NCBI GenBank assembly: GCA_002839095.1
Contig: PGXL01000009.1
Span: 66,444 to 119,559 of the forward strand
Source of the DNA: Tenericutes bacterium HGW-Tenericutes-2
GTDB lineage: Bacteria > Bacillota_I > Bacilli_A > Acholeplasmatales > Acholeplasmataceae
Reading direction: 5' to 3'
Length of the DNA: 53,116 nt
Under the pieces are notes generated by a model, which saw only the letters and a list, made by a program, of their open reading frames with translations, was not told where the DNA came from and searched no databases. Positions 32,435 to 45,417 of this stretch are shown here, in pieces. Position 1 is the first letter of the stretch. Every line of letters starts with the position of its first letter. Position numbers and translations under genes: made by a program.

Positions 32435-33984
32435 TGAAAAAAATACTATCCATATTTACATTCATCATTATATTGATTTTGATGACTGCATGTAATCAAA
32501 ATCCAACTGAACCAAATGAACCGACTCCAACTGATCCAACAGATTCAATCAATTTAAGTGAAATCAATCCGAATAATGATGTCTATTATCAAATATTTGT
32601 TAGATCCTTTGCTGATAGTAACGATGACGGTATTGGTGATTTAAACGGAATAATTGAAAACCTAGATTATCTTGAAGAATTAGGCATAACAGCTTTATGG
32701 TTATTACCAATTAATCCTTCACCTTCATATCATGGGTATTCTGTTACTGATTATTATGATATCGAATCCGATTATGGAACAATGGCTGATTTTGAAAACT
32801 TAATTGATGCTGCTGCATTAAGAAATATCAAAATAGTAATCGATTTAGTCATCAATCATACATCAGACCAACATCCTTGGTATTTATCTGCACTTAGTTC
32901 AACATCAAGTCCATATAGAGATTATTACATTTGGCAAGGAAATAATGCCTTTGAATCCTTTGTTGGTGGAATGAAGGACTTAAACTTTAAGAATGAAGCA
33001 GTCATTACTGAAGTCAAAAATATTATGGATTTTTATCTCGATAAAGGTGTTCATGGATTTAGAGTAGATGCTGCTAAGCATCTGATTGAAGGCATTAACG
33101 CTTCATGGGAAAACACTTTATTATTACTGGATCTAAATCTTCATATCAAGGAAGAATATCCAAACAGCTTTATCGTATCAGAAATATTTGACTACAACTA
33201 TTTAGCATACGCAGATTATTTTATTGGATCTGATTCAGTCTTTAATTTTTATGCTGCATCCAACATATGGGATAAGGTAGGAAATGGGAATAGTAGATAT
33301 TTACTCGTTTCTAACTTAAAGAAAGCTTATGATAAATTTAGAGAAATTGATCCAGACTTTATCGATTCACCATTTATAGGCAATCATGACCTAGATCGTA
33401 TTGCATCCATGGGAGGCTTCAATACCTTTGATACAAAGGAAAAAATTAGTTTAGCTGCTAGAGTCTTATTAACATTGCCAGGTAGTCCATTTATCTATTA
33501 TGGAGATGAGCTTGGCATGAAGGGCTATCGCTATGAGGGAACTAATATTCCAGGCTATGGTGTTGTCTATGATGAATATCGTCGTCAACCATTTATTTGG
33601 GGTAACTCAGATATTGAAACCACTTGGCTACCAAGTGATGGATCCAATAATTCAACAAACAGCCTAGCACTTCAAAGAGAAGATCAAAATTCAGTTTTCA
33701 ATGTGTATAAGGAAATGATTGAAATTAGAAGGAATAATCCAGCTTTAATGTATGGAAATAGCTTTTCTGCATATAATGGTAACAATTCAAGTATTCAAGG
33801 CTATATTAGACATTATCAATATGAAACAATCAATCAAGCAGTTTTAGTGATTCATAATCTTTCATCAGATGCTACTACACTTTCTTTAGATTATGAAGAA
33901 ATTCTTTATGGAAGTCTAAATATTCCTGCATATGGGAGCTTAATTGTAACCATAGATCCAGCAGAAATTGAGGGTTATCGTTAA
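32434..33984 (+). CDS. Surface GH13 alpha-amylase-family lipoprotein
   Basis: 516 residues. Signal peptide with lipobox MTAC (Cys20), then a Pro/Thr/Glu-rich linker (NPTEPNEPTPTDPTD) holding the enzyme off the membrane. GH13 barrel: YYQIFVRSFADSNDDGIGDL, DLVINHTS (region I), GFRVDAAKHL with nucleophile D212 (region II), SEIFD with acid/base E250 (region III) and GNHDLDR with D319 (region IV). It probably makes an endo- or oligosaccharide-type cut in alpha-1,4-glucans outside the cell; exact specificity (alpha-amylase, glucanotransferase or glucosidase-like) cannot be assigned by eye. The start and stop overlap the neighbours in TAATG junctions. Confidence 0.92.
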   Translation: MKKILSIFTFIIILILMTACNQNPTEPNEPTPTDPTDSINLSEINPNNDVYYQIFVRSFADSNDDGIGDLNGIIENLDYLEELGITALWLLPINPSPSYHGYSVTDYYDIESDYGTMADFENLIDAAALRNIKIVIDLVINHTSDQHPWYLSALSSTSSPYRDYYIWQGNNAFESFVGGMKDLNFKNEAVITEVKNIMDFYLDKGVHGFRVDAAKHLIEGINASWENTLLLLDLNLHIKEEYPNSFIVSEIFDYNYLAYADYFIGSDSVFNFYAASNIWDKVGNGNSRYLLVSNLKKAYDKFREIDPDFIDSPFIGNHDLDRIASMGGFNTFDTKEKISLAARVLLTLPGSPFIYYGDELGMKGYRYEGTNIPGYGVVYDEYRRQPFIWGNSDIETTWLPSDGSNNSTNSLALQREDQNSVFNVYKEMIEIRRNNPALMYGNSFSAYNGNNSSIQGYIRHYQYETINQAVLVIHNLSSDATTLSLDYEEILYGSLNIPAYGSLIVTIDPAEIEGYR

Positions 33985-34793
33985 TGTTTCTGATTCGTTA
34001 TTTTAAATACTCATTTCAATTTAAAACGATATTAACCATTCGAAATGAAAAGTTTTGGAAGATTGGAATCTATTTTGTCATACTTTGTTTAATCAATTTA
34101 TTTCCGATGAATTACTTGATTGTAAAAGAACAGGGTTGGAGACTAGATTTCATCGAGGAATCATTTACTAATGAAACTCCAAATTGGACACTACCTGAGG
34201 AGTGTGGTATTGCTGCTGGTAGATTGATATGTTTAACAGACGAAGAATATATATTAACACATCAAGGAATTAACTATATTTTTAACTATCAGAGTTCAAC
34301 CTATGACACTTCAAAGAAGCAGGTTTTATTCACCCAAGATAAAATAATCTACACCAATGGTGAAGATGCACAAATGATAGGATACGATTATAAAGGATTT
34401 ACCGAGGATGTTAATTTTAGAGCCATCAATTTAATGGATAGCTCTGAAAAGGCAAACGCCTATATCAAGCTTGGAACACAAATAGAACAAACATTTGGTC
34501 CATACATTATCTTCTACACTGTTTTAGTGAACACAATCATTTCCATTGGACTAAATATTTTGTTCATTCTCTTATTATCCTTAGTCCTTCAACTGTTTAG
34601 ATTCGGGTATTCAACATTCTTTAAATACACTGAATCACTGAAATTCTTAGTTTTAGTGATGGGGCTACCTGCCGTATTAAGCTTTATCGTAGGTCTTATA
34701 GAACCAGCCTTTTCACCAGTAATATTCCAGTTTGGTATGGGACTAGCAACCATGCTTACTATGCTAATCTATGGGAAAAAGGTATTTGCATAA
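33984..34793 (+). CDS. DUF1189 family membrane protein (YvdJ/MalA-like)
   Basis: 269 residues. One helix near residues 27-48, an extracytoplasmic middle region (about 50-165), then three or four helices; the FRFGYSTFFKYTESLKFLVLVMGLPAVLSF region fits DUF1189. Relatives (YvdJ of Bacillus, MalA of streptococci) sit in maltodextrin operons, but their role is not known. Here it is coupled to the lipoprotein amylase by a TAATG overlap, the same company as in other Firmicutes. It ends the RDD-amylase operon. Confidence 0.82.
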   Translation: MFLIRYFKYSFQFKTILTIRNEKFWKIGIYFVILCLINLFPMNYLIVKEQGWRLDFIEESFTNETPNWTLPEECGIAAGRLICLTDEEYILTHQGINYIFNYQSSTYDTSKKQVLFTQDKIIYTNGEDAQMIGYDYKGFTEDVNFRAINLMDSSEKANAYIKLGTQIEQTFGPYIIFYTVLVNTIISIGLNILFILLLSLVLQLFRFGYSTFFKYTESLKFLVLVMGLPAVLSFIVGLIEPAFSPVIFQFGMGLATMLTMLIYGKKVFA

Positions 34794-35254: not shown

Positions 35255-38188
35255 TTAACCTCCTATCTTTGTATTGTCAAGAGTGACATTGAACATGTTA
35301 CCACCGACATAAAGTGTGTAATAGTAATGCTTGACTTCACCATAAGATTCTCTTACAGCAACTGTAACTGTATAACGACCAGGACGATTAACATCATGAT
35401 AATTAGAATAGTAAACCGAAGCAGAAGAATTGTTAATGGTTACGTTAGATGCTGGATTGAATGCTTCTCCCTTATCGATTGTAACTATGGATTCATTAAT
35501 CGTTATAGAATCATCCATTACTTCAACTAAGATGATTGAAACATTTGAAGGAGCATATAATGTTCCTGATACGATCTCAATGCCTGCTAAATTTGTTTCA
35601 TTAACATAGGTTAGCATTTTATAGTTTTTACCAGGTGTTAAATTGACTGTTGCTAATCCACCTGCAGGATTTCCACTATGTAGAACAATGATTTCAGGCT
35701 CTCCAGCCTTACCATCAATACGATAAGCTATTGCTTGATTTCCTGAGTTCGCATTGATAAATTCTAATCTTGATAGTATTTCTGCTGCATTATTGATTCT
35801 AAAATGGTTGTAGGTTAATCTTATTTCAATTAAAGCCTTGTAATATTCAAATACATCTACATACTGTGCCTTACGATCCCAACGTAGTTGGTTTACAGAA
35901 TCAGGTGATTCATAGGAGTTATGGTCATAACCACCAGTAGGAAGTGGCTTAGAGCGCATCATTTCAACACCAGCATGAAGGAATGGAACACCTTGAGAGG
36001 TTAGAATAATTGCATTTGACTGAATTTGTAGAGCCTTCGTATTTGCAATCGAGATACCTGTAAGTCTTAATTTATCGTATAACGTATTGTTATCATGCGC
36101 TGTAACGTAATTAATAGTTTGATTTGGATTTAAATGCCATTCATTCATTTCTGTGATGCCTGGGAATTCAATACCACCGACAATACCATACATTAATCCT
36201 TGGTAATTATAATTGGTAGCATTCCCTTGTACCCATCCTCTTTCAGTTGCTTGGAATACAGAACCTTTAATAGCATCTCTAGTATAATCATTAAATGCAC
36301 CAACGAGATTCATATTTTTAATGTTTTCTTTTCCAGCAGCTTGTGAATTAGGAAGAGGAGTTGATCCACCATTCCATGGTTCACCATAAACAATGATTGT
36401 TGGATCGATATCTTCTAGCATTTCTTGAATCAAATTCATCGTTTCATAGTCATGAAGTGCCATTAAGTCAAATCTAAATCCTGAAAGGTTATATTCAGTT
36501 GCCCAGAATTCAAGTGAGTCTAGCATAAAGTTTCTCATCATAGAGCGCTCAGATGCTGTTTCATTACCTGTTCCAGAACCGTTAGAGAATCCTCCTTCTG
36601 GAGTCATTCTATGATAATAACCAGGAACAATCTTATGGAAATTAGATGTTTGTGATTCTCCGGTATGATTATATACAACGTCCATAATCACTCTAATATC
36701 TCTATCATGGAATGCTTGTACAACCTGCTTGAATTCATTAATTCTTACTCTTCCATCAAATGGGTTTGTAGCAAACGATCCTTCAAGTGTATTGAAATGA
36801 TATGGCATGTAGCCCCAATTGAATAAATTTGTGTAATTTGGGTTGTTCGCTACTTGCACTTCATCCACATATCCAAAGTCAAAGATTGGAAGTAGCTGAA
36901 CTGCATTGACACCAAGCTCGTCAATATGGTCTAAACCTGTAGTAACAGTAACGCCACTACCTGTAAATGTTGTTCCACCTTGAGTTAGACCCATAAATTT
37001 ACCACGGTAGTTTTCATTACCATTCCATGAGCTGTGAGTAGTTAAATCTCTAACATGAAGTTCATAAACGATATAATCGGTTAAATTGGTAATTGTATTT
37101 GGACGGTCATTATATGTCCACCCAGTAGGATTAGTTTCGTCAAAGTTAACAATCATCCCACGTTGTCCATTTGCACCTGTTGAGTATGCATAGGGATCAG
37201 TTACCTCGTGCGTGATACCATTATTCGTAACACTGAATGTGTAATATTTAAAATCTAAATTACCAGTTAATTTAACTTCCCATGCACCATTTTCAATCTT
37301 ATATAAATCCTCAACTCGATATGGAGTTAACTCATTACTTGGTTGACCTTGGTCATTAAAGTTTGGATGGCCCTGATTATAAAGGTTTAAGGTAACATCT
37401 GAAGAGAGTGGAGCCCATAATCTAAAGATGGTAAATTCAGCTTCAAAGCTAACACCTAAATTGCCTTCATATGTATATAGATTTTCAAAAGCTGGTGTGT
37501 CATATAAATTTTGAAGTGACACAATTTGTTCTGAAGTTCTACCTTCTGCAAAATTAACTTTCAATGTATAAGTTTTTGAAATGTTAATGCCAGGAACAGT
37601 TATTAATAGGTTCTTGGTTGTAGGAGCAGTAGTGCTTGTAAGAATACTCACACCATTTTCAAAAACCTCATAACTTAAAGGAACGTGCGTGAGCTTAGCT
37701 GAAATTCTTTGTGATGTATCAAATGCAACAGTCAATATCTTTTCGCGATAATCAGGAATATTGTTTGCTAAATCAGCTTCTGATAAACCAATTCTAATAT
37801 CTTGTTCCACGAAATAAGCATGACCAACACCATTAACTACTTCGACTAGATTTAAATCAATAAATCTGTCTCCACCAATTTCACGGTACCCATCCCATCC
37901 ACCTTGTTTAATAATAATACCGAGTGTAGTAGCAGTTGGATAATCAGTGCTTAAGTCAATTGTGTAATGTACACCCTTTGAATCTTTAACTAGTGGATCA
38001 AAATTATGTTGGATTCCACCTCTTGCAGTCGGTTCGTGTTCCCAAACCCACATGTTAAAATTTGTATACGTGTCATCATATCTAAAATAGTGAATGACAA
38101 GCGATGTTGGCAATTCGTTTGCCACTGTAGTTAGTCCAATAGAGAATATAGAAAGGACTAGTAATAAAATTGCGATTATTTTTTTCAT
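35255..38188 (-). CDS. pulA: Secreted type I pullulanase with CBM41, CBM48 and C-terminal Ig-like domain
   Basis: 977 residues from the chosen start. A signal peptide (MKKIIAILLLVLSIFSIG...) without lipobox cysteine predicts release. Order: CBM41 (about 28-130, VIHYFRYDDTYTNFNMWVWE), CBM48 (about 250-340, FTIFRLWAPLSSDVTLNLY), GH13_14 pullulanase barrel (about 360-820) with YELHVRDLT, nucleophile in GFRFDLMALHD (near 573), acid/base in YGEPWNGG (near 603), and VTAHDNNTLYDK (near 697), then a DUF5011-like domain (about 900-977). It cleaves alpha-1,6 branches of starch, pullulan or glycogen outside the cell. The frame opens at 38263, but GGGAGG precedes ATG 38188 and the signal peptide starts there. 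It is transcribed divergently from the CBM-protein/ABC operon. Confidence 0.93.
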   Translation of the reverse strand: MKKIIAILLLVLSIFSIGLTTVANELPTSLVIHYFRYDDTYTNFNMWVWEHEPTARGGIQHNFDPLVKDSKGVHYTIDLSTDYPTATTLGIIIKQGGWDGYREIGGDRFIDLNLVEVVNGVGHAYFVEQDIRIGLSEADLANNIPDYREKILTVAFDTSQRISAKLTHVPLSYEVFENGVSILTSTTAPTTKNLLITVPGINISKTYTLKVNFAEGRTSEQIVSLQNLYDTPAFENLYTYEGNLGVSFEAEFTIFRLWAPLSSDVTLNLYNQGHPNFNDQGQPSNELTPYRVEDLYKIENGAWEVKLTGNLDFKYYTFSVTNNGITHEVTDPYAYSTGANGQRGMIVNFDETNPTGWTYNDRPNTITNLTDYIVYELHVRDLTTHSSWNGNENYRGKFMGLTQGGTTFTGSGVTVTTGLDHIDELGVNAVQLLPIFDFGYVDEVQVANNPNYTNLFNWGYMPYHFNTLEGSFATNPFDGRVRINEFKQVVQAFHDRDIRVIMDVVYNHTGESQTSNFHKIVPGYYHRMTPEGGFSNGSGTGNETASERSMMRNFMLDSLEFWATEYNLSGFRFDLMALHDYETMNLIQEMLEDIDPTIIVYGEPWNGGSTPLPNSQAAGKENIKNMNLVGAFNDYTRDAIKGSVFQATERGWVQGNATNYNYQGLMYGIVGGIEFPGITEMNEWHLNPNQTINYVTAHDNNTLYDKLRLTGISIANTKALQIQSNAIILTSQGVPFLHAGVEMMRSKPLPTGGYDHNSYESPDSVNQLRWDRKAQYVDVFEYYKALIEIRLTYNHFRINNAAEILSRLEFINANSGNQAIAYRIDGKAGEPEIIVLHSGNPAGGLATVNLTPGKNYKMLTYVNETNLAGIEIVSGTLYAPSNVSIILVEVMDDSITINESIVTIDKGEAFNPASNVTINNSSASVYYSNYHDVNRPGRYTVTVAVRESYGEVKHYYYTLYVGGNMFNVTLDNTKIGG

Positions 38189-38212
38189 TTTCAAATAACC
38201 TCCCTCATAAAC

Positions 38213-38221
38213 AATATAACA
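38213..38221 (-). promoter_or_regulatory. Extended -10 promoter of the secreted pullulanase operon
   Basis: Minus-strand TGTTATATT, one mismatch from the extended -10 consensus, 24 bases before the pullulanase ATG. It lies in the divergent region that also holds two LacI-type operators. Confidence 0.5.
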
Positions 38222-38265
38222 TGCAATGCCAAGATTAACCCACATATATGTTAGCGATTTCAAAA

Positions 38266-38381: not shown

Positions 38382-40196
38382 ATGAAGAAAGTGTTTTTAG
38401 CTTTAATTCTTTTACTAACAGCTTTCGTGTTCTTTGGAACAAGATCATATGCTGCTGGTACAGGGAATTTAGTAGTCCATTTCAAAGCTTGGGATGGCAA
38501 CTACGATGACCTAGGCTCTTGGGCTTGGGGAGACACAGCCGTAGGCAAACTTAAGAGCGGCGTAGATGATTTCGGTGCTTATTTTGAATTTAATGATGTC
38601 GCTGTAGGTACCAGCGTTGGATTTATCGCTGTTAACTGGATTGGTACTGGTGGTCCTAACTGGGACGACAAATTAACTGGTGATGTTAACATTGATGCTA
38701 GTGCAATCGTGGAAGATCAAACAACTCACGTTTATGTATTCCAAGGTGCTGCTACTTCAGCCGGAAATCCTGCTCACTACATCGCTAAAAATGATGCGCC
38801 TAACATGTTGGTCGTTTATTACGATCCATCAGGTGCATATGAAGAAACTCTAGGTGTACATTCTTGGGGTTGGGAAGGCACAGGCCCAGAATGGGGTACT
38901 CCAGCTCAAATATTAACTAATGCTGGTGTTGCACCTTCAGGAATTGAAGTCAAAGCTGCTATGTTACAAGGTGCCGAAGAATGGGCTGGACTATTAATTT
39001 ATGCTGGCGCAGATGCAAACAAAAAGACTGGCGATGTTACATTAGCTCTATCTGGTGCTGATGCTGACGGAGAAGTTGGTATTGCTTATGTAGTTAGTAA
39101 GGGTGATGCTTACACTTCTGGTGACAATGTATTCTATAATGACTTTGCTGGATTTAAAGAAGAAGCATTTACTTTTAAATTAATGCCTTTCAATAATACA
39201 GACAAGAGCGGTACTTATGCTGTTGATCCAAACACAATTATTGTGAAGACAAGTGCTCAAATTTCTTCACCTTATCCAACAGCTGTTGATAAGGATGCTG
39301 CTAGAGCAACAATTAAGAGCTGGTTTACAGTTCGTGAAGTTACTGGTGAAGACACTTATGGTGATCCACTAGCAATTGAAAGAGTTGACTTTGCAACTTC
39401 TAATGCAACTCTAAATGCATTTGTTCTAATTTTAGATGATGCATTAGATAATACAAAAGAGTATGAAGTATTCTTTAGTTTATTCCCTACATTGGAAGTA
39501 GCTAAAGAAGTTGAAGTAACTATTAATGTTACAGTTCCTGCTAATACTCCTGTTGATGCAGTGATTAAATTAGCTGGTAATGTCAATGGATGGAATCCTG
39601 AACATGCAGATTTTGGTGCAGTTCAAGTTGGAACTTCATTAGTTTACTCATTAACATTTACTGTTGAAGTAACTAATCCATTCACAAGTTTTGAATACAA
39701 ATGGACAAGAGGTTCATGGGCAACTGAAGAATTTGTTGCTTCTAATCGTCCATTAGTAATCCCTAATACTGTTGATTCTATAGTATTTGAAGATGTAATT
39801 GAAGCTTGGGCTGATATTGATGCTCCAGCAAACAAATATGCTGCTCCTGTTCGTGAAGCTGAATTGAATATTGAAGCTTCATTACCAGTCGCAATGGATA
39901 CTGAAAAACCAGTATTAACATTTATTTCTCCATCAGGTATCGTTGGTAAGATTCCTGCTGAAAGAATTATTAATGTAGCTTGGGGTCAACCATTTAACCA
40001 AAACTTATTCCCAAGATTTAGAGTAGTCGATGATCGCGATGGCGATATCACACCATTTGTTTATGTACCAAAGGGAGCTAATTCAGTCCTAGATACAAGA
40101 ACAGTTGGAGATTATACAATCATGCTACGTGTTGTTGACAAATGGGGCAATGTAACTGAAGAAACGTTCATCTTCAGAGTTGCCAAGAGTTCTTAA
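38382..40196 (+). CDS. Secreted non-catalytic multi-CBM starch-binding protein
   Basis: 604 residues. Signal peptide cleaved near SYAA|G (about residue 25), with no lipobox and no C-terminal membrane or sortase signal. Order: CBM41-like (about 28-130, NLVVHFKAWDGNYDDLGSWAW), a second CBM41-like module (about 140-240, MLVVYYDPSG...VHSWGWEG), a pullulanase-type Ig-like module (about 290-375), CBM20-like (about 376-465, IKLAGNVNGWNPEHADFG, FEYKWTRGSW), and DUF5011-like (about 505-604, VVDDRDGDITP, VVDKWGNVTEE). No glycoside hydrolase domain. It probably concentrates starch at the surface for the adjacent solute-binding protein and enzymes. Codons favour GCT and GGT, unlike neighbouring genes, suggesting strong expression. 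First gene of the operon; the SBP gene follows after 11 bases. Confidence 0.85.
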   Translation: MKKVFLALILLLTAFVFFGTRSYAAGTGNLVVHFKAWDGNYDDLGSWAWGDTAVGKLKSGVDDFGAYFEFNDVAVGTSVGFIAVNWIGTGGPNWDDKLTGDVNIDASAIVEDQTTHVYVFQGAATSAGNPAHYIAKNDAPNMLVVYYDPSGAYEETLGVHSWGWEGTGPEWGTPAQILTNAGVAPSGIEVKAAMLQGAEEWAGLLIYAGADANKKTGDVTLALSGADADGEVGIAYVVSKGDAYTSGDNVFYNDFAGFKEEAFTFKLMPFNNTDKSGTYAVDPNTIIVKTSAQISSPYPTAVDKDAARATIKSWFTVREVTGEDTYGDPLAIERVDFATSNATLNAFVLILDDALDNTKEYEVFFSLFPTLEVAKEVEVTINVTVPANTPVDAVIKLAGNVNGWNPEHADFGAVQVGTSLVYSLTFTVEVTNPFTSFEYKWTRGSWATEEFVASNRPLVIPNTVDSIVFEDVIEAWADIDAPANKYAAPVREAELNIEASLPVAMDTEKPVLTFISPSGIVGKIPAERIINVAWGQPFNQNLFPRFRVVDDRDGDITPFVYVPKGANSVLDTRTVGDYTIMLRVVDKWGNVTEETFIFRVAKSS

Positions 40197-40207: not shown

Positions 40208-41602
40208 ATGAAAAAACTATTATCAGTATTATTTATTTTCTTAGCTATATTCTCATTGGCAGCTTGTAAACCTCAAGCAACAGAACCAGTTGAAACAGAA
40301 GAACCAACAGCAGAAGTTAACAATGGTCAACGTATTGATTTTGGTGATACTTTCACTCAAAAATCTAAGATCACTGTTTGGATTGACGATGAAGCTGGCG
40401 AATATATGACAGCAGTTATTGCTGAATTCAATAAACTATATCCAAATATCGTTGTTGAACATCAACATTACGGTTCAGTAGATGCTCGTGAAATGCTAAA
40501 GACTTTCGGTCCTTCAGGAAATGGTGCTGACGTATTCCAATTCCCTCATGACCATTTAGCTCAAGCAGTTCTAGAGGATTTAGTTTATCCACTTCCTGCA
40601 GCAACTAAGACTAAGTTACAGGCTCGCGCTCATGAACTAGGATTAAGTATTGCTACATTAACTTATGACGAAGGTGCTAAATCATTCAATCCAAGTAGCC
40701 CAAATGCTGTTGAAGGTTTATATGCTGTTCCTATGTCAATTGAATCTGTAGGTTTATTCTATAATACAGATTTAATCACAACTCCAGCAACTACTTATGA
40801 AGCTTTATTAGCTGCTGCTGCTACATGGAATGCTGCACCTGCTGCTGACAATGCAGTTGGCGATACTCGTACCAATGCTCAAAAGGGTTATTTCTACCTT
40901 GGAACTTCAAGCCATTGGGGCGATAGCTATTTCAATCAACACATTTATTCAGCGTTTGGATTCTATCCATTCGGACCAACTCTTGATGATCCATCAGCAG
41001 TTGGATTTGCAAATGCAGTTCCTGCATTAACATGGATGGTTAACACATTGAAGCCTGCTGTTACCGGTACTGGTGCTCATAACTCAGTTACTGCTGGCGC
41101 AAACTTCGAATTAGGTAAGATTCCTTATATTATTGCTGGTCCATGGAACCATGAAGCTTATCAAAAATCAGCTACATTAAACTATGCTGTAGCTCCAATG
41201 CCAACAATTAATGGCAATGCTACTAGAACTTTTGCTGGTGCTATGATGGCTGCTGTTTACAAGTATTCAGAAAATAAAGAAGATGCAATTAAGTTTGTTG
41301 AATTCTTAAATTCTGACATTGCTATGGAATTACAATATGAGTATAAAGGTAAATTACCAGCTCTTAAGACTGAATTACTAGAAAACATTGAAGGCGTAAA
41401 TGAAGACACATTATTGATGGCTATGGCTGCTCAACTTGAAACTTCAGTTCCAATGCCAACAATTCCTCAAGTAACTTATTATTGGGGACCAGGCGAAACT
41501 ATGATTATCCAAGTTTGGAATAACGCAGTAGCTCCTGCAACCGCTGCAGCAACTGCTGAAGCATCCTATCGTACAAGCGCAGGCTTAGGCGAAGGGAACT
41601 AA
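40208..41602 (+). CDS. malE: Maltodextrin ABC transporter substrate-binding lipoprotein
   Basis: 464 residues. Signal peptide with lipobox LAAC (Cys20). A family 1 solute-binding protein: ITVWIDDEAGEYMTAVIAEF at the start of the mature part, VDAREMLKTFGPSGNGADVFQFPHD, PMSIESVGLFYN and IIAGPWNHEAYQ are typical of MalE/MdxE-like proteins. It binds maltose or maltodextrins and delivers them to the two permeases encoded next. TAAGGAGG precedes the ATG. Codon use is of the highly expressed type, as in the gene before it, and a stable hairpin without a T run follows, which may set a high SBP-to-permease ratio. Confidence 0.9.
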   Translation: MKKLLSVLFIFLAIFSLAACKPQATEPVETEEPTAEVNNGQRIDFGDTFTQKSKITVWIDDEAGEYMTAVIAEFNKLYPNIVVEHQHYGSVDAREMLKTFGPSGNGADVFQFPHDHLAQAVLEDLVYPLPAATKTKLQARAHELGLSIATLTYDEGAKSFNPSSPNAVEGLYAVPMSIESVGLFYNTDLITTPATTYEALLAAAATWNAAPAADNAVGDTRTNAQKGYFYLGTSSHWGDSYFNQHIYSAFGFYPFGPTLDDPSAVGFANAVPALTWMVNTLKPAVTGTGAHNSVTAGANFELGKIPYIIAGPWNHEAYQKSATLNYAVAPMPTINGNATRTFAGAMMAAVYKYSENKEDAIKFVEFLNSDIAMELQYEYKGKLPALKTELLENIEGVNEDTLLMAMAAQLETSVPMPTIPQVTYYWGPGETMIIQVWNNAVAPATAAATAEASYRTSAGLGEGN

Positions 41603-41638
41603 CATCTTAACGCATTATAAAGTTTAAACTTAGGTGAA

Positions 41639-41660
41639 GGCGGCAAAAATTATTGCCGCC
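41639..41660 (+). promoter_or_regulatory. Intra-operon hairpin between malE and malF
   Basis: GGCGGCAA pairs with TTGCCGCC around a 6-base loop and can extend by TGA/TCA after one mismatch. No T run follows. It is probably an mRNA-stabilising or attenuating structure rather than a full terminator, comparable in position to the REP elements between malE and malF of E. coli. Confidence 0.75.
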
Positions 41661-41687
41661 CTCATTTAGTTTAATTTGGAGGACATT

Positions 41688-44030
41688 ATGAAGATAATTA
41701 GCATCATTAAGGCAATTGCCTCAGGTATAATTTGGGGATTTGGACAATTACTGAATGGCCAATTTTTAAAAGCCTTATTCTTTTTTGTTTTTTTCGTATT
41801 TTTGATTGGTATTGAGTTAGGTACAAGCAAATATTTCGAAGAGATTGATCCTTATGACAAAATGGTCGGTAAGGATTTAGGAGATCTTTGGTATATCAAC
41901 GGGTTTTATCCTGAATATGTATTCGATGGTATAGTTTATCAACCATTTGAAGATTTTTTAGTTGAAATTGGTGGTGCAGATAACATCACTGAAGAACTAT
42001 TTATTGAGTTCATGGCTAAGGATTTAAAGGAAAATAATCCAATTGTATACACTAACCTCGCATCATCCGAGGTCTTTTTGGCTGAAGGATTTGATGACAC
42101 AGGAAAAATACACATTTTTAGAAGACAGACTCTTTATAAAGATCAAGATGACAAATACTATATGGAAAGAGATGTTACACAGTTAGACGGAAGCAACAAA
42201 AAAGAATACGTTGAAACTACAGTTCTTACAGGAGAACTGAATGAAAACAATATATTATCTTCAAGAGAAGGATTGACCGCCTTTATAAAAAATGGTGAAG
42301 TATATAGAAATTCTGGAGTTTATTATGTAAGAGCTCTTGATGCAGGCACCAATGTTTTAATAAATATTTTAACCGAAGAGGTTGTGCCGAATGTTGCATC
42401 CACAAGAGTGCAAGTTGCTGGTCCTCTATACGTAATCAATGGAGTTATTTTTGAATATTTTGAGCCTGGATTGATCTATAATTCAGCGCGTCTTCAATAT
42501 AAAGAAACACCATTATTTGTAGCATTTAGACACGCGATGCTTCTCACCTATTCATTTCCATGGAATCAATATAATCAAAGTGATTTCACAAGATTAATGT
42601 TAAAAGTGTATTTTGAATTAAATCCTAATATCAGAGATGCATTTGAAAGAGATTTTAACAATTTTTATTATGATCAAGCTGGAGCATTTGTAAGAGGTTA
42701 TTGGGCAGTTACAACCTTAGGTACGACATATAAGGTGAACTATACTGGACACATGGCATTGTATGATGCGATGGTAGGTAACCAAAATTCTCAGTACACT
42801 ATGTTTAATTTAGCATCCATACAACCACTAGAAGAAGTGCCAATTCGTGGTCACGTTTCTACTCTTCTATTATTAGAAGGCCTAATCGGTGTTATTGGCT
42901 CACTACTGCTATCAATCTTTATGTTTTGGGGTATCTCAGATGCCTATAAGGTATCAGAGGCAAAGCGTTTAAAACAAAAAGTTTTAGGTGATGTTAAATA
43001 CTTTAAGGATGTTTATGAAAGAAGCTTTGAATATATTATTTTATTCCCTGCAATTGTTGTCTTAGCATTTATTTCGATTATGCCAATTTCATTTGGTTTC
43101 GTAATCGCATTTACGAATATATCTGGTAATGCATCGATGGTAGATACATTTGACTGGGTAGGTTTAAAAAACTTTATTGCCTTGTTTAATTTTGCATCTG
43201 GCTTAGGATCATCCTTCGGACAAGCTTTCTGGCGTGTCTTAGGTTGGACTGTAGTTTGGGCAATTCTATCCACTTTTACTGTTTTCTTCGGTGGTTTTTT
43301 CCAAGCACTTATATTAAACAGTGAGAGTGTCGTATTTAGAAAATTCTGGCGTACCATTTTAATTCTTCCTTGGGCTATACCTGCCTTACTATCACAAATG
43401 GTATTTTCTGTTATGTTTAATGAATTCGGCTTTATCAACGCATTACTTCAGGATGTTGGAATATATGATGTCTTAACAAATTTAGGCATGCTAAAGGTAC
43501 CATTTGATTCACTCACTGGACTTGCAAAATTCTTTTATCTAGGTCAAGACAATATTCAGTGGTTTACGAACCCGTTCAACCCAACATTTGTTAGAACAGC
43601 ATTAGTTGTAGTAAATATTTGGCTTGGATTTCCATACTTTATGGCATTAATGACAGGTGTAATGACAGCAATTGATGCAACGCTTTATGAGGCTGCTGAT
43701 ATTGATGGCGCGAATAGATTCCAAAAGATTTTCCAAATCACAATGCCTTTAGTCTTATATTCGACTGCACCGATATTGATTATGACATTCTCAGGTAATT
43801 TTAATAACTTCGGGGTCATCTACTTTGTTACAGGTGGTGGACCGAATGCCGGGGTTGCAAGTAGAGGGTTTGCTGGTGATACAGATATCTTGATATCATG
43901 GATGTATAAACTAACCGTTGATTACTCCATCTACAACATGGCATCTGTGTTCTCAGTACTTATATTCTTGTTCGTAGGATCCATAACCGCTTGGAACCTA
44001 TCTAGAACTAGAGCATTCCAGGAGGACTAA
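41688..44030 (+). CDS. malF: MalF-type maltodextrin ABC permease with large extracytoplasmic domain
   Basis: 780 residues, against about 430 in most Gram-positive MalF proteins and 514 in E. coli. An N-terminal hydrophobic region (residues 1-45, IIWGFGQLLNGQFLKALFFFVFF) is followed by about 345 hydrophilic residues (46-390) predicted outside the membrane, another helix (about 391-414), a cytoplasmic linker, and a normal six-helix permease domain from about residue 450. The ATPase-contacting EAA loop is LYEAADIDGANRFQKIFQITMP. The frame opens at TTG 41676, but the ribosome site GGAGG lies just before ATG 41688. malG follows after four bases. The inserted domain matches no family I recognise; it may dock the binding protein or starch-binding protein. 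Confidence 0.88.
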   Translation: MKIISIIKAIASGIIWGFGQLLNGQFLKALFFFVFFVFLIGIELGTSKYFEEIDPYDKMVGKDLGDLWYINGFYPEYVFDGIVYQPFEDFLVEIGGADNITEELFIEFMAKDLKENNPIVYTNLASSEVFLAEGFDDTGKIHIFRRQTLYKDQDDKYYMERDVTQLDGSNKKEYVETTVLTGELNENNILSSREGLTAFIKNGEVYRNSGVYYVRALDAGTNVLINILTEEVVPNVASTRVQVAGPLYVINGVIFEYFEPGLIYNSARLQYKETPLFVAFRHAMLLTYSFPWNQYNQSDFTRLMLKVYFELNPNIRDAFERDFNNFYYDQAGAFVRGYWAVTTLGTTYKVNYTGHMALYDAMVGNQNSQYTMFNLASIQPLEEVPIRGHVSTLLLLEGLIGVIGSLLLSIFMFWGISDAYKVSEAKRLKQKVLGDVKYFKDVYERSFEYIILFPAIVVLAFISIMPISFGFVIAFTNISGNASMVDTFDWVGLKNFIALFNFASGLGSSFGQAFWRVLGWTVVWAILSTFTVFFGGFFQALILNSESVVFRKFWRTILILPWAIPALLSQMVFSVMFNEFGFINALLQDVGIYDVLTNLGMLKVPFDSLTGLAKFFYLGQDNIQWFTNPFNPTFVRTALVVVNIWLGFPYFMALMTGVMTAIDATLYEAADIDGANRFQKIFQITMPLVLYSTAPILIMTFSGNFNNFGVIYFVTGGGPNAGVASRGFAGDTDILISWMYKLTVDYSIYNMASVFSVLIFLFVGSITAWNLSRTRAFQED

Positions 44031-44034
44031 GGCG

Positions 44035-44664
44035 ATGACACTATTATATTTAGCATTAGCGTATTTATTCTTACTGGTACTAGCAGTTAACTATGGCTCT
44101 GTTTACGATTATGCAATTAAAAAAGGATATGAAGGATTCGTCTATAGATTAATTTCCTTGATTCCTATCTTTGGATATTTATATTTCAAGAAAAAAGAAG
44201 CATTAATTGAAGTATCAGATCGTGAACTTAAGCACTTAGTGAGTTTTGAAATTTTAGGTAAACGAACTGCTTTATATGCTTTATTAGTCCTTGTTGCAAT
44301 ACTTATTTTGGTACCAATTTCATTCTTATTAGTTACATCAGTGAATAACAGTTTACTGCAAACAATGTTTACAGTATACGCCATTATTATCTCATTTATG
44401 CTACATCAAGGATTAGTTGTTGATTACGCAAGCAAAAAGGGATATGAAGGCATTAAGCCTGGGCTTGTCGGATTAATTCCAGTATATGGTTTCATCTATT
44501 ATAATAATCAACCTAAGAGAAGAAATGTATCGAAGCAAGCAATCCGTGAAGTTTTCAAGATATCTAGTATTTTACAAAAAATCTTAGTATATGGTCAGAT
44601 TACATTGGTTGCAGTTATTGTTATAGTTCCAGTTATCTACATCTTTGGTATGGCATTTTCAAAT
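44035..44664 (+). repeat. Two diverged 315-bp copies encoding the 105-residue N-terminal unit of MalG
   Basis: Copy one covers residues 1-105 and copy two 106-210. Nearly all conserved landmarks keep an exact 105-residue offset. The copies are well diverged in DNA, so the duplication is old. Confidence 0.8.
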
Positions 44665-45417
44665 CTTAGAACTGATATTCCAAACCAAATATGGCCAGAT
44701 ACACCAAGCTGGGAATCATTTAGATTCCTATTCGAGGAAACTAACTTTAAGAGATGGTATTGGAATACATTAAAGATTGCATTAATTAATATGACAGTTG
44801 GTACAGTCTTAATTACTGGCGCAGCTTATGTATTCGCACGCTTCTCATTTAAGGGTAAAAAAGCGGGATTACTTACTATTTTAGTACTTCAAGCATTCCC
44901 ATCATTTATGGGGTTAATTGCGATGTATGTCTTATTCTGGAAGTTTGGATTATTAGGTGAACCAACCTATCTATCCATTCTCTATATTGGTGGATCCATT
45001 CCAGGTAACCTATGGTTAATTAAGGGATTCCTATCTCAGATACCGAAGGATCTAGATGAATCTGCGATGATCGATGGAGCCTCTAAGTTCCAAATATTTG
45101 TACGAATCATTCTACCTTTATCGGTTCCAATTTTAACGTTTGTTGCAGTTTCGATGTTTATGGGACCTTGGATGGATTATCTACTCCCAGGATACCTACT
45201 CAGATTTAAGCCTGCAGGTGCAGCACCTGATTATGATATTACACAGCAATGGACTTTGGCTGTTGGTTTATTCAAGTTTATCAACGATATTAATTACAGA
45301 CACTACTCAGCATTTGCTGCCGGTGCACTTATGGTTGGTATTCCAATTACAATATTATATATGCTCTTCCAACGTTACCTTATCGAAGGTATTATGGCAG
45401 GAGCTACAAAAGGATGA
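44035..45417 (+). CDS. malG: MalG-type maltodextrin ABC permease with duplicated N-terminal unit
   Basis: 460 residues, against about 280 in usual MalG proteins. The C-terminal part is a standard permease with the EAA loop DESAMIDGASKFQIFVRIILP. The first 210 residues are two diverged copies of a 105-residue unit: KKGYEG at 29-34 and 134-139, LIPxxGxxY at 42-50 and 147-155, ILxK at 73-76 and 179-182, LVA at 86-88 and 191-193, VP at 93-94 and 198-199, and terminal N at 105 and 210. The second copy ends in what is normally MalG helix 1, so helix 1 plus a preceding segment has been doubled. Helix count and topology are therefore unusual. The stop codon lies inside the following terminator. No ATPase gene follows. 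Confidence 0.88.
   Translation: MTLLYLALAYLFLLVLAVNYGSVYDYAIKKGYEGFVYRLISLIPIFGYLYFKKKEALIEVSDRELKHLVSFEILGKRTALYALLVLVAILILVPISFLLVTSVNNSLLQTMFTVYAIIISFMLHQGLVVDYASKKGYEGIKPGLVGLIPVYGFIYYNNQPKRRNVSKQAIREVFKISSILQKILVYGQITLVAVIVIVPVIYIFGMAFSNLRTDIPNQIWPDTPSWESFRFLFEETNFKRWYWNTLKIALINMTVGTVLITGAAYVFARFSFKGKKAGLLTILVLQAFPSFMGLIAMYVLFWKFGLLGEPTYLSILYIGGSIPGNLWLIKGFLSQIPKDLDESAMIDGASKFQIFVRIILPLSVPILTFVAVSMFMGPWMDYLLPGYLLRFKPAGAAPDYDITQQWTLAVGLFKFINDINYRHYSAFAAGALMVGIPITILYMLFQRYLIEGIMAGATKG

Follow-up and report, generated by a model that had tools for sequence, protein, structure and literature searches.

A 105-residue tandem duplication at the N-terminus of a MalG-type permease, kept within a bacterial lineage

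Background

The subject of this study is a MalG-type permease of an ATP-binding cassette (ABC) importer, encoded in a stretch of 53,116 nucleotides from Tenericutes bacterium HGW-Tenericutes-2 (contig PGXL01000009.1, positions 66,444 to 119,559 of the forward strand), hereafter called the window. The N-terminus of this permease is a 105-residue tandem duplication that is real, old and kept within a lineage. The repeated unit consists of a helix (TMa), a segment carrying the motifs KKGYEG and LIPxxGxxY, an elbow and a copy of MalG helix 1. The doubled N-terminus is a lineage-specific variant of a known importer and a common state in its family of genomes.

Results

Evidence for the duplication

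Comparison of residues 1-105 with residues 106-215 yielded a 96-column ungapped local alignment at an offset of exactly 105, with a BLOSUM62 score of 158. This score was reached in none of 5000 composition shuffles (mean 31.4, z 23.8) and in none of 5000 shuffles preserving the hydrophobic/polar pattern (mean 38.7, z 11.5); the runner-up diagonal, 111, scored 30. An initial annotation, made from the letters alone, had proposed this duplication from landmarks recurring at a 105-residue offset (KKGYEG, LIPxxGxxY and others), all of which are present. It was also right that helix 1 is part of the repeat and that the MalG-type core gains helices through it. Between the DNA sequences of the two copies, the best local alignment under the scoring used extends over 33 columns, at the YA(I/S)KKGYEG codons. 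The duplication accordingly appears old, and not like an assembly fault.

Searches of Pfam, NCBIfam and PHROGs over the unit returned no family reaching its cut-off. The best Pfam candidate, YqgQ-like, was rejected at 15.2 bits against a cut-off of 25. Nor did any paper listed in the literature searches describe the doubled MalG N-terminus, in line with the annotation, to which no described ABC importer with this arrangement was known.

Distribution of zero-, one- and two-unit forms

Residues 1-215, used as a query against some 5.8 billion database proteins, gave 76 relatives: 54 with two matches to the unit profile, 16 with one and six with three. The last are 505-509-residue forms whose second unit holds an extra hydrophobic stretch. 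In the window's family of genomes the permease is matched at E 1e-5 in 75 of 88. Counted by frame length and aligned range, most frames not having been read letter by letter, a full-length two-unit orthologue is present in 31 of the 88 genomes and a two-unit gene split over two contigs in one; eight carry a one-unit orthologue, of which one is truncated, one has a larger hairpin and two are preceded by a long segment, and the other 48 show distant paralogues only, or nothing. The doubling is thus common in this family and not a peculiarity of the gene.

Of 296 genomes sampled from the class, 15 (families f16, f19 and f24) have one-unit frames of 349-390 residues; other one-unit frames, in families f9, f12 and f24, carry further additions. 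Among the named records, of which 80 loci were kept out of a larger set, one-unit forms are labelled, for example, Candidatus Izemoplasmatales or Candidatus Izimaplasma, and in two cases Acholeplasmataceae (L063) and Acholeplasmatales (L076). Acholeplasmataceae is the usual label of two-unit forms, which are also present in Acholeplasma equifetale (L069), Tenericutes bacterium MO-XQ (L068) and a Bacilli bacterium (L079). In Paracholeplasma vituli L081, the same gene as L060, the first unit was missed by the profile; the likeness between the two units of L060 is weak (z 4.6, reached in 4 of 2000 shuffles).

At E 1e-4 the unit profile matched 46 of 395 class genomes and 25 of 392 phylum genomes (overlapping samples). 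All matches fall in MalG-size frames (349-952 amino acids; the frames of G611 and G623 not read) bar one, G106:C74 (E 6.2e-5), an open reading frame (ORF) that reads as another membrane protein with LIPxCG/LIPNC stretches, which was taken as chance. Looking for the unit in other permeases, a check proposed at the outset, produced in these samples one-unit and two-unit MalG relatives and this single chance match elsewhere. Eight short proteins (56-130 amino acids) considered as free-standing units were read as truncated or frame-disturbed MalG starts, and a plasmid collection gave no match to the unit.

Conservation and selection

Conservation was scored over 51 two-unit rows, the window included. 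At 21 paired columns both copies share the majority residue at 60% or more, among them D25, K29, K30, G31, Y32, E33, G34, P44, G47, Y50, R77, P94 and N105. Mean identity to the window over 50 relatives is 0.48 for unit 1, 0.64 for unit 2 and 0.84 for the core. The ratio of nonsynonymous to synonymous substitution rates (dN/dS; NG86, against eight relatives) spans 0.07-0.29 (unit 1), 0.03-0.17 (unit 2) and 0.03-0.11 (core), and is higher in unit 1 than in unit 2 in seven of the eight comparisons, with most dS values above 1 and hence unreliable. Unit 1 is the fastest-evolving part and less conserved than unit 2 and the core. Its lower identity and higher dN/dS indicate a part that is kept, yet less constrained overall, as would fit an accessory role.

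Origin of the doubling

A quick core tree of 91 rows, made with the units removed and carrying long-branch warnings, places the 17 zero-unit rows on one side of a branch (support 89); within the Acholeplasma group, two-unit and one-unit rows are intermixed. A later unit tree of 74 rows left out both units of L060, whose row was very long, the first unit of P0056, and L013. It unites 26 first units, all but those of L048 and L079, on one side of a branch (support 100/99). When L060 is included (78 rows), the first units need two changes and not one, and the first unit of L048 lies within no starred set. The simplest reading would be one early duplication in the Acholeplasma group, with some genera losing unit 1 afterwards.

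Two further independent doublings, in L048 and L079, are likely. In the core tree L048 (two-unit, 456-amino-acid frame) groups with four one-unit rows (96, starred), and L079 (two-unit, 463-amino-acid frame) shares a six-row set with L047 and four one-unit rows (100, starred). Among 12 proteins compared, unit 1 of each best matches the second unit of its own lineage: that of L048 scores 198 against its own second unit and at most 179 elsewhere, that of L079 scores 128 against its own, 129 against L047 and at most 86 elsewhere. In the 74-row tree, unit 1 of L079 belongs to a 12-row starred set (99/99) and unit 1 of L048 to a 6-row starred set (95/90). A single origin nevertheless survives the approximately unbiased (AU) tests (p 0.182 and 0.114 with the 78-row tree; 0.241, 0.188 and 0.129 with the 74-row tree), so the argument for independence comes from branch support and best-match scores.

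Predicted topology

AlphaFold models were made of whole MalG alone, for one two-unit and one one-unit protein. The two-unit protein is predicted to have about nine helices with the N-terminus outside. The one-unit form is predicted to be N-out already, and the doubling to add helices while leaving the N-terminus where it was, because each unit contributes an even number of predicted crossings. The idea that the doubling moves the N-terminus was consequently not upheld. In structure alignments the two-unit model aligns with Escherichia coli MalF (9nxc_H) from TMa2, at MalF residue 41, and in both models TMa is aligned from MalF transmembrane helix 2 (TM2) on.

The partner MalF

In the MalF of the window about 350 residues separate the first strong hydrophobic helix (30-48) from TM2 (397-415), and a Pfam search found no family covering this stretch. 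PMC2246101 places the large loop of E. coli MalF between TM3 and TM4, unlike the long stretch of the window MalF. Unit-bearing loci have at least 154 residues before MalF TM3 in 31 of 31 usable cases, and at least 243 in 30. Zero-unit loci have at most 131 in 58 of 59, four of the 58 values being near zero or negative since the MalF start found was late; the exception is L117 (528). This count omits 17 near-duplicate or partial unit loci, MalFs cut by the end of a stretch (including L048), L097, and six loci without an adjacent MalF (among them L042, also one of the 17). L117 itself is a locus of Erwinia mallotivora with a single open frame that combines sequence resembling a binding protein and sequence resembling MalF.

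No internal repeat was found in MalF: residues 1-58 and 59-100 of the E. coli protein compare at chance level, as does the start of the window MalF with its own TM2-TM3 region.

Discussion

Possible roles of the doubled module

We propose, tentatively and at somewhat less than an even chance, that the doubled module lies beside the translocation core of a predicted maltodextrin importer as a peripheral membrane collar, and is not part of the sugar path. Each unit would cross the membrane out-to-in by TMa and in-to-out by TM1, so that KKGYEG and LIPxxGxxY would face the cytoplasm. In the unit next to the core, TMa would occupy the site held by MalF TM2 in E. coli, and the duplicated helix TM1' may occupy that of MalF TM1. 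The MalG N-terminus could have been built up stepwise, from ordinary MalG to one unit and then to two, at about the point where MalF acquired its long stretch before TM3. Since a unit amounts to two crossings, it could be duplicated or lost without flipping the core. Such a collar would lend support to the MalF-MalG pair in cells that lack a wall, and the cytoplasmic motifs might serve the ATPase or a regulator as a second site.

Several observations count against the collar. The models are of MalG alone (predicted TM-score, pTM, 0.58 for the two-unit and 0.70 for the one-unit protein) and, being built on largely the same alignment, are not independent of each other. VIA-align reports first and last aligned residues, not a helix-by-helix equivalence to MalF, and MalF entries make up 2 of 50 structure-alignment rows. 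The profile alignment of one-unit MalG with MalF begins at residue 46, after TMa. Pairwise scores reach a z of about 3, a level attained in 38 and 42 of 3000 shuffles, which may stem from the related TM1/TM3 part alone; sequence comparison thus gives no support for homology between TMa and MalF TM2. The link between the unit and a long MalF represents about one evolutionary transition in the tree and is an association only. Finally, conservation of the paired cytoplasmic motifs is much the same in either copy, which a pure collar leaves unexplained.

The main alternative is that the two KKGYEG/LIPxxGxxY loops form a cytoplasmic platform selecting or regulating an ATPase encoded outside the operon, an explanation we regard as possible, albeit rather unlikely. 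The best-conserved paired residues lie mostly in predicted cytoplasmic loops, at similar levels in copies 1 and 2 (K30 1.00/0.78, G34 0.73/1.00, P44 1.00/1.00, Y50 0.88/0.71). A whole-genome search for frames bearing the OB_MalK domain, with ATPases lacking that domain outside its reach, found two, both on contigs other than that of the window, so the ATPase of the importer is probably shared and not encoded in the operon. However, the Bacillus-type maltodextrin importer also employs an ATPase encoded elsewhere, MsmX (PMC2860498), and the Bacillus loci fetched carry no unit.

The doubling could also be a neutral ratchet: a neutral or slightly costly accident without a function, retained since its extra hairpin packs harmlessly. 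The one-unit state of 8 of the 40 orthologue-bearing genomes of the window's family, the fast evolution of unit 1 and the weak likeness of the L060 units all fit this account. We nevertheless consider it unlikely, as unit 1 retains K29-G31, I43-P44, Y46-G47, P94 and N105 at 0.73-1.00 over the 51 rows, its dN/dS is well below 1 (though dS is saturated) and the doubling probably occurred more than once.

Docking of the binding lipoprotein or an amylase to the extra outside N-terminus is very improbable: a large segment does occur at exactly this end of MalG in L012 and L013, and about 500 hydrophilic residues precede the MalG part in Thermotogales MalG1/MalG2 (PMC2246101), but the predicted outer parts of the window's two-unit form comprise a few starting residues and a TM1'-TMa2 turn of about 10. 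The extra docking surface once envisaged is accordingly unlikely outside the cell but may exist in the cytoplasm.

A bolder version of the collar proposal, which we think improbable, would see an amplifiable MalG hairpin in wall-less Bacilli, doubled independently at least three times. The living intermediates, with zero, one or two units and with units plus ectodomains, would then show a six-helix permease gaining MalF-like helices by duplicating its own first helix, and the collar would restore MalF-like symmetry around the pump and hold a cytoplasmic control site.

Relation to known permeases

E. coli MalG (MalFGK2, PDB 2r6g_G) has six helices, a cytoplasmic N-terminus and 296 residues; the window permease has 460 residues, with about nine helices and an outside N-terminus predicted, and its residues 1 to about 175 are extra. 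E. coli MalF likewise bears extra N-terminal helices on the ABC permease core, transmembrane segments 1 and 2 being its additional pair relative to MalG according to PMC3654945. It differs in that TMa has no convincing sequence relation to MalF TM2 and in that, unlike the window permease, its residues 1-58 and 59-100 form no detectable repeat.

Thermotogales MalG1 and MalG2 also have a long N-terminal extension, in layout closest to L012 and L013; in PMC2246101 their first and second helices are separated by about 500 hydrophilic residues, for which no likeness to known proteins is reported. The window permease instead has helices and short loops from tandem duplication, with about 40-50 residues from TMa1 to TM1' and no large hydrophilic region between its first two helices. 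The one-unit MalG proteins of Izemoplasmatales type (L074, L075, L077, L078, L082; frames of 352-357 amino acids) have the unit once, no duplication, and a core 52-58% identical to the one-unit query P0071. Their loci, too, pair with a MalF carrying a long stretch before TM3.

The source of the two additional N-terminal helices of MalF relative to MalG is posed as a question in PMC3654945. Zero-, one- and two-unit forms coexist in living species and exact removal of unit 1 would recreate a natural layout; with that layout reachable by a single edit, it becomes testable how accessory helices of ABC importers arose and what they are used for. For annotators, the first 175 residues are conserved protein and not a mis-called start.

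Other additions at the MalG N-terminus

L012 (1815-4661) and L013 have frames of 952-953 amino acids, in which about 570 residues with a lipobox-like signal (judged by eye) precede a single unit; within the front segment of L012 lies an atrophied bacterial Ig domain (PF20578, E 9.1e-16). L046 and L047 have other hydrophobic stretches ahead of the unit, and these hairpins were rejected as decayed unit copies for lack of similarity (z -0.3 and 0.1). The LIPxxG(xxY) stretch is enlarged and hydrophobic in L021, L049 and P0049-P0056, 505-residue forms included, among both one- and two-unit proteins. Front segments, extra hairpins and enlarged stretches together mark the MalG N-terminus as a site of repeated additions in this lineage.

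Operon and genomic context

The permease adjoins a PF01547 binding protein and a PF00528 MalF-type permease (40208-45417; Table 1). The stop codon of MalF (44028-44030) is followed, after a four-base gap, by the malG ATG at 44035, and AGGAGG ends 9 bases before this start. The binding protein is a lipoprotein by its LAAC lipobox (judged by eye). The MalG core fold is present, and the BPD_transp_1 (PF00528) profile scores 57.5 bits against a curated cut-off of 26.4. The NCBIfam equivalog NF008231 (MalG) gives 155.3 bits (E 2.4e-45), below its cut-off of 261, so the protein is filed as MalG-type and not as an NF008231 equivalog. The substrate is predicted to be maltodextrin from a phosphorylase, alpha-amylase-type enzymes and a GlgB-like enzyme nearby.

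Table 1. Positions in the window of the doubled unit, its parts and the operon genes (pLDDT, predicted local distance difference test)
Feature	Position	Strand	Evidence
Substrate-binding protein SBP_bac_1	40208..41602	+	PF01547, E 5.8e-30
Partner MalF-type permease	41676..44030	+	784 amino acids, TTG start
Shine-Dalgarno-like AGGAGG ahead of malG start	44020..44025	+	sequence
MalG-type permease, two-unit form	44035..45417	+	460-amino-acid ORF
Unit 1 (residues 1-105)	44035..44349	+	self-alignment, 0/5000 shuffles
Helix TMa1 (residues 2-29), predicted out-to-in	44038..44121	+	AlphaFold block pLDDT 85-92; hydropathy
KKGYEG motif, copy 1	44119..44136	+	sequence; conserved in 51 two-unit rows
LIPxxGxxY segment, copy 1, flanked by short helices 35-40 and 46-53	44158..44184	+	
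TM1' (residues 71-104), duplicated copy of MalG helix 1	44245..44346	+	self-alignment; model
Unit 2 (residues 106-210), runs into MalG core; counterpart of the unit of one-unit relatives	44350..44664	+	
Helix TMa2 (residues 106-134)	44350..44436	+	model; hydropathy
KKGYEG motif, copy 2	44434..44451	+	sequence; conservation
LIPxxGxxY segment, copy 2	44473..44499	+	sequence; model; conservation
TM1 (residues 176-207), ordinary MalG helix 1	44560..44655	+	model; structure alignment
MalG core (residues 211-460) with coupling loop DESAMIDGASKFQIFVRIILPL of EAA type	44665..45414	+	

The two OB_MalK frames (L143 and L144, at G000 C29 and C47) are 373 and 394 amino acids long and are candidates for the shared ATPase. 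Directly upstream of the binding-protein gene lies a 604-amino-acid protein (38382-40196) with a PUD domain (PF03714) at its N-terminus; the same domain occurs in the pullulanase-like enzyme of the divergent gene at 35255-38263. The starch/maltodextrin region also includes a DUF1189 membrane protein (33984-34793; PF06691, E 4.6e-19), which we take to be of the same kind as YvdJ of the Bacillus mdx cluster. YvdJ carries no assigned function in the available part of PMC2860498. A paralogous permease of 476 amino acids (P0077; L014:1535-2965) also has long extra N-terminal hydrophobic stretches, in which the KKGYEG/LIPxxG motifs were not seen by eye.
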